A stretch of DNA of 38,588 bases from Nitrospirota bacterium. Its GTDB lineage: Bacteria > Nitrospirota > Thermodesulfovibrionia > SZUA-242. This document shows, in pieces, positions 964 to 38,588 of this stretch. Made by a program: the position numbers and the translations under genes. Numbering within the stretch: the first letter of the stretch is position 1; each line of letters opens with the position of its first letter. The stretch is taken from positions 1 to 38,588 of the forward strand of contig JALUUO010000066.1 in the NCBI GenBank assembly GCA_027021335.1, given 5' to 3'. The notes under the pieces are model-generated. The model made no database searches. It saw nothing but the letters and a program-made list of their open reading frames with translations, and was not told where the DNA came from.

Positions 964-1425
964 CTAAAGGTCGTCTGCCGGGATAAAGTCCAGCTTATCC
1001 CCGTCCCATAAAAACGACTTTATATGGTCGAGCTTTCCGTCTTTGACGGAGATAACAATATGAAGAGCATCAGGGAACTCCGGTTCTCCCAAGATGGTCT
1101 GCACTTCTTTATCCGTTTCTGAAAAATATGCGTCATGGTCTGTGTGGGAATGATAGAATGCTATAACCTCTGCACCACCAGCTTTTGCATCTGAAAATAT
1201 TTTTTCGGCTTCTTTTCTATCAATGGCGTAGGCGGTACGCGCATCACGCTGGTGCAGTGCAGGGTCTTCAGCATGGAGCCGATTCTGTATGTTGGTGCAC
1301 TCATGCACTGCCTGGTCTGTTTTATTTTGGGTTACAATTCCACAACACTCGTCAGGATATGTATTTAATGCATGTCTGCCTATTTTATCGATTACGTTTT
1401 TACTTATCTGAATCTTATATTTCAT
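964..1425 (-). CDS. JAMM/MPN+ zinc metallopeptidase, Mec-like (sulfur-carrier-cysteine hydrolase candidate)
   Basis: A 153-residue single-domain Mov34/MPN/PAD-1 protein with a complete JAMM site: Glu26 in DECCGIV, then the H-x-H-x7-S-x2-D motif with His92, His94, Ser102 and Asp105. Bacterial JAMM proteins such as Mycobacterium Mec cleave cysteine from the C terminus of the sulfur carrier CysO. Here the gene overlaps by 11 bases the end of a CysM-like synthase gene and is last in a coaE-cysK-cysM-like operon, which supports a role in carrier-dependent cysteine synthesis. No carrier gene is in the window. Similar JAMM folds also occur in phage tail and ubiquitin-like removal systems, so the substrate is inferred from context only. 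Confidence 0.82.
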   Translation of the reverse strand: MKYKIQISKNVIDKIGRHALNTYPDECCGIVTQNKTDQAVHECTNIQNRLHAEDPALHQRDARTAYAIDRKEAEKIFSDAKAGGAEVIAFYHSHTDHDAYFSETDKEVQTILGEPEFPDALHIVISVKDGKLDHIKSFLWDGDKLDFIPADDL

Positions 1426-2335
1426 GGCTTAAATATCTGTCGCCGCCGTCCGGGAATATGACTACAACCATTCCCTCTTTGATTTTTTCCGCTGTCTCCA
1501 GCGCCTTAGCCATGGCAGCTCCCGAAGAATGTCCGACTGCTAGCCCCTCTATGGTTGTAAGTTTTTTTACCATGTTATAAGCTTCGTCTGTGTTAACGAA
1601 AATAGTTTGATCCGGAAAGTTTTGGTCATAAATTCCCGGTACAATCGAATTTTCCATGTGTTTCAGCCCTTCGATGCCGTGCATGGCATCATCAGGCTGA
1701 ACCGCTATAACTTGAATCTCGGGGTTGAATTCTTTCAGCGCCCTGCCTGTTCCCATGACAGTACCGCTGGTTCCGACGCTGGCGACAAGGTGAGTAACAC
1801 GTCCCTTAGTCTGTTCAATTATCTCGGGACCGGTTGTAAGGTAATGAGCCTTCCAGTTGGATGGATTATTGTATTGATCCGGTGAAAAGTATTTGTCCGG
1901 ATTCTCATTGAATATTTTCTTTGCAAGGTTAATAGCGCCGTCCGAGCCTTCAAACTCACTGGAGTAGATAATTTCAGCACCAAAGCCTGCTATAATTTTT
2001 TTTCTCTCAATGCTTGCATTTTTTGGGATAACTATTTTTACCTTATATCCTTTGACCGCCGCGATCATGGCATAAGCGATTCCGGTATTGCCGGAGGTTG
2101 CGTCCAGCATGATTTTATCTTTTGTCAATAAACCGGACTCTTCCGCATCTTTTATCATCTGGTACGCCGGGCGGTCCTTGACAGAGCCTCCCGGGTTAAA
2201 GCGTTCGAGCTTTGCGTAAATAGAAACTTTGTTATTCAAATGCTCTGTGAGTTTCCTGATTCGCAGAAGAGGAGTATTTCCTATCGTTTCAAGGATATTG
2301 TTACTTACCGTATCTATGCTGGATGAACTTTTCAT
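1415..2335 (-). CDS. cysM: PLP-dependent cysteine synthase, CysM type
   Basis: A 306-residue fold-type II PLP enzyme. PLP-binding Lys53 lies in GGSVKDRPA; TSGNTG at 80-85 binds the substrate carboxylate; GTSGT near 188-192 cups the PLP phosphate; GHSSGAA is near 268-274. It is closer in motif pattern to the CysM branch (YNNPSNWKAHYLTTGPE; FPDGGDRYLS) than to classical CysK. By eye, Lys225 falls where Mycobacterium CysM has the Arg that selects O-phosphoserine. With the adjacent JAMM peptidase this suggests a thiocarboxylate-carrier-dependent O-phosphoserine sulfhydrylase, but free-sulfide OAS activity is equally possible. Its ATG overlaps the cysK stop by four bases (ATGA), showing translational coupling. 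Confidence 0.85.
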   Translation of the reverse strand: MKSSSSIDTVSNNILETIGNTPLLRIRKLTEHLNNKVSIYAKLERFNPGGSVKDRPAYQMIKDAEESGLLTKDKIMLDATSGNTGIAYAMIAAVKGYKVKIVIPKNASIERKKIIAGFGAEIIYSSEFEGSDGAINLAKKIFNENPDKYFSPDQYNNPSNWKAHYLTTGPEIIEQTKGRVTHLVASVGTSGTVMGTGRALKEFNPEIQVIAVQPDDAMHGIEGLKHMENSIVPGIYDQNFPDQTIFVNTDEAYNMVKKLTTIEGLAVGHSSGAAMAKALETAEKIKEGMVVVIFPDGGDRYLSHEI

Positions 2336-3279
2336 TGTACGAGGTTATCAAACATTCTTGTGCTCAAGTATCTTTCACCGGTATCCGGGAATATAACGAC
2401 AACTTTTTTACCACTTCCAAGTCTTTCCGCCACTTTCATGGCGGCAAAAAGGTTTGCTCCTGAAGATATACCACATAGTATGCCTTCTTTTTTTATAATC
2501 ATCTTTGCTGTTTCATAGGCATCCTCATCCGAGACCTGTACTATCTCGTCGATAATATCCTGGTTAAGCACTTCAGGTATAAACCCTGCTCCTATTCCCT
2601 GGATTTCATGAAGCCCGGGTTTGCCTCCTGAGATAACAGCGCTTTTTGAGGGTTCTACTGCTACAATCAATACCTGGCCGCCTATTTGTTCTTTCAGTGT
2701 TTCGCCTATACCGGTGAGTGTTCCGCCTGTGCCTACTCCGGCAACAAATGCATCAGGATTTTTGACCTGGTTCAGGATTTCACGGGCGGTTCTGTTTTTG
2801 TGTACTTCGGGATTGGCAGGGTTTTTGAACTGTTGAGGTTGGAAGTAACCCTCTGTCTCTACCAAACGCTCGGCCTCTTCAACAGCGCCTATCATGTCTT
2901 TTTCACCTTCAGTGAGAATTAACCTGGTGCCGAAAGATTTAAGTATATTTCTGCGTTCGATACTCATTGTTTCCGGCATTGTCAGTATAAGCTTATATCC
3001 TTTTGCGGCACAAACAAACGCCAGTCCTATTCCTGTATTGCCTGATGTAGGCTCGACAACCGTGTCTCCGGGTTTTATCTCCCCCCGGCTTTCCGCAGCC
3101 TCGATCATTGAGAGACACATCCTGTCTTTTATGGAAGCACATGGATTGAAGAACTCTATCTTGGCATAAATTTCAGCCCAGTCATCCTTGACCAGTTTGT
3201 TGATCCTCACCATCGGTGTGTTTCCGATAGTGTCGAACACAGACTCTGAGGCATCTTTATAGAAAAGTGATTTATTCAT
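2332..3279 (-). CDS. cysK: Cysteine synthase A (O-acetylserine sulfhydrylase)
   Basis: A 315-residue cysteine synthase that condenses O-acetylserine with sulfide using PLP. Lys51 in NPCASIKDR is the Schiff-base lysine; PTSGNTGIG (77-85), the glycine loop GVGTGGTLTG and CGISSGAN are all present. GKPGLHEIQGIGAGFIP is typical of the CysK branch. It lies 14 bases downstream of coaE and is coupled to the CysM-like gene by an ATGA overlap. Two non-identical synthases in one operon suggest division of labour between sulfur donors. The length is normal for the family. Confidence 0.9.
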   Translation of the reverse strand: MNKSLFYKDASESVFDTIGNTPMVRINKLVKDDWAEIYAKIEFFNPCASIKDRMCLSMIEAAESRGEIKPGDTVVEPTSGNTGIGLAFVCAAKGYKLILTMPETMSIERRNILKSFGTRLILTEGEKDMIGAVEEAERLVETEGYFQPQQFKNPANPEVHKNRTAREILNQVKNPDAFVAGVGTGGTLTGIGETLKEQIGGQVLIVAVEPSKSAVISGGKPGLHEIQGIGAGFIPEVLNQDIIDEIVQVSDEDAYETAKMIIKKEGILCGISSGANLFAAMKVAERLGSGKKVVVIFPDTGERYLSTRMFDNLVQ

Positions 3280-35891: not shown

Positions 35892-35920
35892 TTGACAGAA
35901 CTAGGTCACGACAGTATAAT
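35892..35920 (+). promoter_or_regulatory. Perfect-consensus sigma70 promoter for the DsrE/DsrH-like operon
   Basis: TTGACA (35892-35897), exactly 17 bases, then TATAAT (35915-35920): both hexamers and the spacer are ideal. Transcription would start near 35927, leaving a leader of about 20 bases that carries AGGAGG just before the first ATG. Confidence 0.88.
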
Positions 35921-35949
35921 GTAAAATCTTTAAAATAAGGAGGTTGAAT

Positions 35950-36222
35950 ATGGCTAAGAAAATAGCGGTGATTGTAAGGGATAGGCAAGGAGAAGCCATG
36001 CGAATGGGTCTCGGGATCATACTGCTTGATGATGTGATTGATGTATATGTTTTGGATAGAAAACTTGAGGAAACGGAAGATAATACTCTGAACTTTGAAA
36101 CCATGAAAGATATGGATATGAACGTATACACTAACTGCAAAGACAATAAGGATATGGAATACCTTTCCACAGAAGACCTAGCAAAAAAACTTACACAATA
36201 CGATCACATACTGCCATATTAG
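35950..36222 (+). CDS. DsrE/DsrF-like small sulfur-relay family protein
   Basis: 90 residues starting at ATG 35950 behind AGGAGG (35938-35943). The sequence IAVIVRDRQGEAMRMGLGIILLDDVIDVYVLDRKL has the DsrE-fold layout: a strand, a helix reading across a family of adjacent genes, then a second strand. It has a single Cys, in TNCKDNKD. It heads a three-gene operon with a DsrH-like and a second DsrE-like gene, an arrangement recalling DsrEFH/TusBCD complexes of sulfur transfer. Role in sulfur relay is inferred; the catalytic cysteine of true DsrE/TusD is not clearly conserved. Confidence 0.7.
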   Translation: MAKKIAVIVRDRQGEAMRMGLGIILLDDVIDVYVLDRKLEETEDNTLNFETMKDMDMNVYTNCKDNKDMEYLSTEDLAKKLTQYDHILPY

Positions 36223-36253
36223 ATACATAAGGCATTGAAGAAGGAGATAGATT

Positions 36254-36421
36254 ATGAAGATATTATATATTCTTAAGCAAGATCCGGATGAAACGTTGAA
36301 CTCTATTATGAACGAACATAAAGCTTCAAATGATGTTACAGTTATCGATTTAAGAGAGAACAAGAACTATGATCAAATTATAGATCTCATTTCAGAAAAT
36401 GATAAGGTTATATCCTGGTAG
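36254..36421 (+). CDS. Very short DsrH/TusB-like protein (55 codons)
   Basis: A small gene easily missed: ATG 36254, AAGGAG ribosome binding site at 36241-36246, 55 codons, TAG stop. The protein begins MKILYILKQDPDETLNSIM and ends ENDKVISW. The N-terminal MKxLYIxK strand and the C-terminal Trp are features of the DsrH/TusB family, but typical TusB has about 95 residues, so a central part is missing. It contains no Cys. The gene sits between two DsrE-like genes with its own ribosome binding site and lies in the same orientation 31 bases after the first. Confidence 0.7.
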   Translation: MKILYILKQDPDETLNSIMNEHKASNDVTVIDLRENKNYDQIIDLISENDKVISW

Positions 36422-36498
36422 TTAATTTAATCTTAATCTTAACATTAACCAAGTAATAGAAAAAACAACCGCTGTAATTACTAAGGAGGTACTAAAAC

Positions 36499-36801
36499 AT
36501 GAAACTCGGTATTTTGGTGAATACGGACAAACACCTTGAAGACATAATCGGACTTACAAAAAGTGCTCTATCCAAAGGCCACGAAGTTACTATGTTTACT
36601 ATGGATGAGGGTACCAATTTTTTTACGGATCCCTCCTTCACAGAGTTATCTAAACTTCAAGGCGTTACTATGAGCTTCTGTGATCACAGTGCAAAACAAT
36701 TAAATGCTAAAACCGATGGCCTTCCATCTGAAATAACAAGTGGCAGTCAATATGACAATGCTGCCATGTACAACAGTTGCGATAAGTCGATAGTGCTATA
36801 G
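36499..36801 (+). CDS. DsrE-family protein
   Basis: 100 residues with a strong AAGGAGG. The start KLGILVNTDKHLEDIIGLTKSALSKGHEVTMFTMDEGTNFF is typical of DsrE-like domains. Later come the family's Cys position (MSFCDHSAKQLNAK) and the end motif GSQYDNAAMYNSCDKSIVL. The Cys in FCDHSAK is a candidate persulfide carrier. It is the third gene of the small operon and is followed by a >100-base gap before rlmB. Whether it works with Dsr sulfite reduction or tRNA thiolation cannot be told. Confidence 0.75.
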   Translation: MKLGILVNTDKHLEDIIGLTKSALSKGHEVTMFTMDEGTNFFTDPSFTELSKLQGVTMSFCDHSAKQLNAKTDGLPSEITSGSQYDNAAMYNSCDKSIVL

Positions 36802-37859: not shown

Positions 37860-37935
37860 GCCACCGTAGCTCAGCTGGAAGAGCGGCTGATTTGTAATCA
37901 GCTGGTCGGGGGTTCGAATCCCTTCGGTGGCTCCA
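37860..37935 (+). tRNA. tRNA-Thr(TGT)
   Basis: A 76-base cloverleaf including encoded CCA. Acceptor GCCACCG pairs with CGGTGGC; anticodon stem GCTGA/TCAGC encloses loop TTTGTAA with anticodon TGT; the T loop is GGTTCGAATCC-like. Confidence 0.96.
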
Positions 37936-38026
37936 GACAGTCGTTTTATGTACTTTAACGAGGCGTTTTTTAGTTGTTGGATGATTGATTCAGGTTGTTG
38001 AACTTAGCTTTTAGGCTATGTTTTGT

Positions 38027-38111
38027 GGAGAGATTCCCGAGTGGTCAAAGGGAGCAGACTGTAAATCTGCCGGCTCAGCCTTCGGAGGTTCAAATCCTCC
38101 TCTCTCCACCA
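38027..38111 (+). tRNA. tRNA-Tyr(GTA)
   Basis: 85 bases with the long variable arm of class II tRNAs and encoded CCA. Acceptor GGAGAGA pairs with TCTCTCC; anticodon stem GCAGA/TCTGC encloses CTGTAAA with anticodon GTA. Confidence 0.96.
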
Positions 38112-38151
38112 TATGTTTTTTATACAATAAATATATATAGTATGAGTGGGT

Positions 38152-38227
38152 GCGGGAATAGCTCAGTTGGTAGAGCGCTAGCCTTCCAAGCTGGATGTCG
38201 CGGGTTCGAATCCCGTTTCCCGCTCCA
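38152..38227 (+). tRNA. tRNA-Gly(TCC)
   Basis: 76 bases with CCA. Acceptor GCGGGAA pairs with TTCCCGC; the anticodon loop CTTCCAA has anticodon TCC; a standard T arm (CGGGTTCGAATCCCG) is present. Confidence 0.96.
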
Positions 38228-38299
38228 ATAATCACCTGAGCTATTTTAAAAATATTGGAAAATTTTATCTGAAACTGGTTTTAATAGAACGGTTTATAT

Positions 38300-38375
38300 G
38301 CCCATGTAGCTCAGTTGGTAGAGCACATCCTTGGTAAGGATGAGGTCAGCGGTTCAATCCCGCTCATGGGCTCCA
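38300..38375 (+). tRNA. tRNA-Thr(GGT)
   Basis: 76 bases with CCA. Acceptor GCCCATG pairs with CATGGGC; anticodon stem CATCC/GGATG encloses TTGGTAA with anticodon GGT. It is the second Thr isoacceptor of the cluster. Confidence 0.96.
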
Positions 38376-38432
38376 TAGATGGGGGGACTCCGAGGCGGTT
38401 GGTGCCGGTTCGGTAAGTTCGGTTTTTAATAA

Positions 38433-38588
<156 letters not shown>

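Follow-up and report, generated by a model that had tools for sequence, protein, structure and literature searches.

A compact DsrE/DsrF/DsrH-like gene cassette, probably of the type II/YTD kind, in a Nitrospirota bacterium

Do three very small genes placed behind an ideal promoter encode a minimised sulfur relay of the DsrEFH/TusBCD family, and does this relay form a distinct complex? The question is raised by a contig from the genome assembly (2.7 Mb, 96% complete) of a Nitrospirota bacterium with dissimilatory sulfur metabolism, analysed over its full length of 38,588 nucleotides (hereafter the window). An earlier reading of the sequence (the original prediction) had described the genes as a DsrE/DsrH/DsrE-like operon. 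We compared the locus with a sample of 61 relatives from the same class, and examined 69 distinct cassette loci.

Layout of the cassette and its promoter

The features of the cassette are the following:

35892..35920, + strand: sigma-70-type promoter, an exact match with TTGACA (35892-35897), a 17-nt spacer and TATAAT (35915-35920)
35937..35943, + strand: ribosome binding site AAGGAGG of gene 1, from direct sequence reading
35950..36222, + strand: gene 1 (g1), 90 aa, DsrF/TusC-like subunit without conserved Cys, from a profile match to DsrF and an alignment with TusC
36241..36246, + strand: ribosome binding site AAGGAG of gene 2, from direct sequence reading
36254..36421, + strand: gene 2 (g2), 55 aa, shortened DsrH/TusB-like subunit with no Cys and a C-terminal Trp, from synteny, selection and weak profiles
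36483..36489, + strand: ribosome binding site AAGGAGG of gene 3, from direct sequence reading
36499..36801, + strand: gene 3 (g3), 100 aa, predicted DsrE/TusD-like catalytic subunit with Cys61 and Cys94, from Pfam DsrE and profiles
36679..36681, + strand: codon of Cys61, candidate persulfide-carrying residue, from alignments

The three genes lie in the same direction downstream of the promoter, and no terminator-like sites were found between them in the window sequence. Each gene has the strong ribosome binding site that had been claimed for it, at 6-9 nt from the ATG; the mechanically called ORF of g1 begins 2 codons further upstream, at a TTG. The ideal promoter was also confirmed. The exact TTGACA-N17-TATAAT string occurs only once in the whole window, for a mean of 0.01 exact sites per window in dinucleotide shuffles (0.29 when one mismatch was permitted). 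Such a match does not amount to evidence of the heavy constitutive expression originally deduced from it. Upstream of g1, in the loci where this gene comes first, the best consensus match has 0 mismatches in the window alone, two in L031, L041, L044, L073 and L098, and three to five in the others. A strong promoter is therefore not a general property of the cassette. In many relatives a rhodanese gene precedes the cassette on the same strand, and the cassette may there share the transcript of this gene.

The cassette is flanked on one side by an RlmL-type methyltransferase gene on the opposite strand, and on the other side by a SpoU-type methyltransferase gene. The latter is followed, at positions 37860-38588, by four tRNA genes (Thr, Tyr, Gly, Thr), after which an EF-Tu-like gene begins, an arrangement common in bacteria.

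Distribution and gene order in relatives

Among the 61 relatives, g3 was detected in 49, g2 in the same 49 by profile search, and a member of the g1 family in 48. g3 also occurs strongly in some other classes of the phylum. No cassette homologues were found in viral contigs and plasmids, and a locus of Ca. Fraserbacteria (L042) was discarded as a chance match, the profile search of its genome being empty. The presence of g1, g2 and g3 disagrees in only three genomes, which are 83-87% complete. All three genes are missing together from one genus (f10, 8 genomes) and from genomes G002, G030 and G049, corresponding to at least four separate joint absences. This joint presence or absence offers natural contrasts for studying the purpose of the complex.

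The gene order is g3-g2 in 28 of the 69 loci, g3-g1-g2 in 20, g1-g2-g3 as in the window in 19, and g1-g3-g2 in a single one, the last locus containing g3 alone. Three DsrE/F/H-like genes are syntenic in 40 of these loci, including the window (35950-36801). In nearly all the genomes exhibiting only the g3-g2 couple, g1 is present elsewhere in the genome, and in four of the loci that were re-read it is placed directly upstream of tig (trigger factor), clpP and clpX. The co-inheritance of g1, g2 and g3 without linkage argues for joint action, and the co-occurrence of the three genes lends indirect support to a heterotrimer or hexamer. Synteny-based surveys would miss these genomes, because DsrF is unlinked although co-inherited.

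Assignment of the three subunits

The profiles used for comparison within the class were built from its own dsr-operon DsrH-DsrE-DsrF-TusA cassette, found in seven loci (L112-L118), most of which have dsrMKJOP, dsrC or tetrapyrrole genes next to it. By profile comparison its subunits are homologous to those of the window, from which they differ by a normal size (98, 120 and 137 aa) and by a CxxC motif on DsrE. In these seven loci, the DsrE ORF lies between dsrH and dsrF and falls under the family cut-offs. Most Thermodesulfovibrionia with reductive-type dsrAB only were reported to have dsrFH but no dsrE (PMC11033732), and this reported absence may be due to these low DsrE scores.

In the profile comparisons each gene matches its own counterpart best, the cross-controls being worse. 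g3 scores over the Pfam DsrE gathering score, the family is matched in 62 of 68 homologues, and the g3 profile matches the dsr-operon DsrE with an E-value of 7e-12, compared with 0.073 for the DsrF control. It also matches the DsrE chain 2hy5_A of the PDB (E 0.003); no NCBIfam match was found for the g3 of the window. Cys61 is invariant in the 68 aligned g3 homologues and is aligned both with the active-site residue of DsrE/TusD, Cys78 in E. coli TusD, and, in the dsr-operon DsrE, with the Cys that opens the CEAC motif. The third protein thus keeps a candidate persulfide Cys, as had been anticipated.

For g1, no NCBIfam match was found in the window protein, and the best profile match is the DsrF of the dsr-operon cassette (E 4e-4, probability 34%, a weak match), the DsrE and DsrH controls being worse (E 0.56 and 0.15, respectively). 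Its C-terminus can be aligned with TusC. The AlphaFold2 model of g1 is moderate and retrieved nothing significant with Foldseek, DsrE 2hy5_A being found with a TM-score of 0.62 but an E-value of 0.3. The identification of g1 as a DsrE was ruled out, since 0 of 40 g1 members match DsrE and the best profile is DsrF. The DsrE/DsrH/DsrE composition originally proposed consequently holds for g2 and g3 and has to be amended for g1, so that the set is probably DsrF (g1), DsrH (g2) and DsrE (g3).

The identity of g2 is the weakest of the three by sequence. The TusB family TIGR03011 is the commonest weak NCBIfam match of the g2 family (11 of 67 members, best 0.0029), and the g2 of the window scores 13.7 bits, below the cut-off of 49.2. 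The g2 profile matches the 98-aa DsrH of the class weakly (E 7e-4, probability 27%), with controls of 0.048 for DsrF and 0.003 for DsrE, the latter also being a weak match. This in-class profile did better than the single-sequence comparison of g2 with E. coli TusB, for which hhalign gave no match. AlphaFold2 yielded a beta-alpha-beta-alpha-beta model with a mean pLDDT of 93, for which Foldseek found no significant match. The protein has, as initially described, 55 residues and no Cys; only 12 of 68 g2 homologues contain any Cys at all. A Trp is found at the C-terminus of 67 of 68 g2 copies, and likewise at or near the end of TusB/DsrH. This Trp, the TIGR03011 matches and the gene order, which in the 20 g3-g1-g2 loci corresponds to the canonical E-F-H, indicate that g2 is probably a DsrH.

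Alternatively, g2 could be a spurious ORF, or a real but unrelated small protein, the true unit being a DsrE/DsrF pair, which would agree with its weak resemblance to TusB/DsrH and with a length about 40 residues below that of the usual DsrH. We consider this very improbable, given that g2 adjoins g3 in 68 of the 69 loci, occurs in the same genomes, and has a confidently predicted fold with the C-terminal Trp kept as in TusB/DsrH. Moreover, g2 is under purifying selection, with dN of 0.015-0.18 against dS of 0.08-1.04 in the pairs with computable dS. A chance ORF was ruled out on the same grounds, and the conservation of the small ORF, on which the original prediction depended, is established. 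The preferred assignment of g2 to DsrH implies that it would show how small this subunit can be.

Sulfur-gene context and the proposed relay

A survey of gene neighbourhoods had been suggested as a check and was carried out on the relatives. YeeE/YedE is encoded within about 5 kb of the cassette in 36 loci, TusA in 26, a two-domain rhodanese in 32 and a single rhodanese in 7. The rhodanese-membrane protein-YeeE-TusA-USP block of the window's own genome lies on another contig (C108) rather than beside the cassette, and each of its genes matches the block that trails the cassette in relatives. The genome further encodes dsrAB (contig C68) and, beside dsrMK-like genes (contig C40), a DsrC with Cys in both C-terminal positions, so that all the partners of a TusA-DsrE-DsrC relay are present, scattered over four contigs. 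A dsrD-like ORF follows dsrB, without a Pfam match at 1e-3. dsrA, found over its cut-off in 56 of the 61 relatives and in the window's genome, was ruled out as a predictor of the cassette because it is nearly universal in the class.

The context in relatives is that of the published YTD cluster. This cluster, made up of YedE, TusA, DsrE and two or three hypothetical proteins, was first reported from a disproportionating member of the Nitrospirota (Umezawa 2020, as cited in PMC8780430). Later reports give its composition as YedE, TusA, DsrE, Chp1 and Chp2 in cable bacteria, Desulfobacterota and Nitrospirota (PMC13293266, PMC13047784, PMC12998232). Two 2026 papers identified the cluster's three small cable-bacterial proteins as DsrEFH-like (PMC13047784; PMC13293266, under the name 'DsrEFH type II'). 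In the cable bacterium E. aureum they form a 1:1:1 complex, in which TusA loads Cys67 of DsrE and sulfur is transferred to DsrC in vitro (PMC13293266). Type II was reported in 985 genomes including Nitrospirota, only syntenic sets being counted (PMC13293266).

Like type II/YTD, the window's set comprises three small DsrE/F/H-like proteins, of which the DsrE subunit carries a single invariant Cys and the DsrH lacks Cys20; it likewise occurs in Nitrospirota, in a genome with dsrAB, and in relatives it is syntenic with yeeE/yedE and tusA. It differs by the location of the cassette and of the yeeE-tusA block on different contigs, by the gene order F-H-E and by a DsrF that is unlinked in many relatives. 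Its three proteins sum to 245 aa, the published type II trimer being quoted as 33 kDa. With DsrEFH type I of Allochromatium vinosum (PDB 2HY5) and TusBCD of E. coli (2D1P), the common points are a subunit-by-subunit correspondence, the equivalent of Cys78 on DsrE/TusD, a Trp at or next to the DsrH/TusB end, and the order E-F-H in 20 loci. In contrast with these systems, the proteins score far under the TIGR03010, TIGR03011 and TIGR03012 cut-offs, the DsrH is shortened to 55 aa (usually about 95-102) and lacks Cys20, and the cassette does not lie in a dsr operon.

The cassette is real and conserved, and most likely belongs to this recently described kind rather than to a new category. The minimised DsrEFH/TusBCD relay initially proposed is well supported by the subunit profiles, the co-occurrence of the genes and the invariant Cys61. 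The suggestion of a distinct complex is not, as the cassette of relatives adjoins YeeE/YedE and TusA, which is the published YTD arrangement. It appears doubtful that the 55-residue DsrH, together with a DsrF encoded at its own site, marks a distinct minimal DsrEFH clade that differs from the type II of cable bacteria and was missed by single-cluster surveys; if it did, no smaller sulfur-relay trimer would be known.

With good confidence, we propose from these comparisons that g1-g3 encode a compact DsrEFH of the type II/YTD kind, which takes sulfane sulfur from TusA and relays it to DsrC. The three proteins would form a compact heterotrimeric sulfurtransferase made of DsrE (g3), DsrF (g1) and the 55-residue DsrH (g2). 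TusA, loaded with sulfane sulfur imported via YeeE/YedE or freed by rhodanese, would hand it to Cys61 of DsrE, and the complex would pass it on to DsrC, which would supply DsrAB. DsrF and DsrH, without conserved Cys, would most likely provide scaffold and docking surface. This mechanism is carried over from the published type II biochemistry; the set, compared with type II through the published description, is probably orthologous to it. Its cellular role would lie in sulfur oxidation or disproportionation.

Two other functions were considered. A TusBCD-like housekeeping transfer of sulfur for tRNA 2-thiouridine, rather than for energy metabolism, appears improbable. The job could be vacant, as no DsrE/TusD over the TIGR03012 cut-off was found in the 61 genomes of the class, and the window's genome has TusA and a second, shorter protein of the DsrC family, TusE-like by size only. 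However, the cassette is missing from the 8 genomes of genus f10 and from three well-completed genomes that should also need tRNA thiolation, and in relatives it adjoins genes for YeeE, TusA and rhodanese rather than tRNA-thiolation genes. The RNA methyltransferases (RlmL-type and SpoU-type) that could recall such a role flank the cassette at the window's locus only. The second possibility, which we regard as rather unlikely though less so than the first, is that the YTD complex takes thiosulfate-derived groups from YeeE-TusA in sulfur disproportionation, DsrC not being its target. YTD was proposed as a marker of disproportionation, and its expression rises during the disproportionation of thiosulfate (PMC9751629, PMC12998232); the complex was proposed to accept YeeD products (PMC13047784), and DsrE3A of M. 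cuprina moves thiosulfate (PMC4175335). Yet thiosulfate did not load the type II proteins, sulfur went to DsrC in vitro, and disproportionators are known both with and without type II (PMC13293266). We retain the transfer from TusA to DsrC as the preferred reading.

In five relatives' loci (L055, L060, L064, L065 and L066), the YeeE/YedE gene located directly after g2 (at about 5783-6871 in L060, for instance) contains two in-frame TGA codons. Both positions are Cys in the Cys-type versions (L068, L070), and SelB is present in the genomes with the TGA-bearing genes. These YeeE/YedE are predicted double selenoproteins. The YeeE/YedE selenoprotein listed in reviews has a single Sec, within a GUxSG motif (PMC13188914); here Cys occupies that position and Sec is predicted at two others.

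Elsewhere in the window, two successive ORFs at 272-825 (272-547 and 478-825) resemble Cas2-type proteins by eye. Also by eye, the minus strand at 964-3279 carries a protease-like ORF of the JAMM/MPN type and, after it, two cysteine-synthase-like genes, recalling sulfur-carrier-protein-dependent cysteine synthesis.
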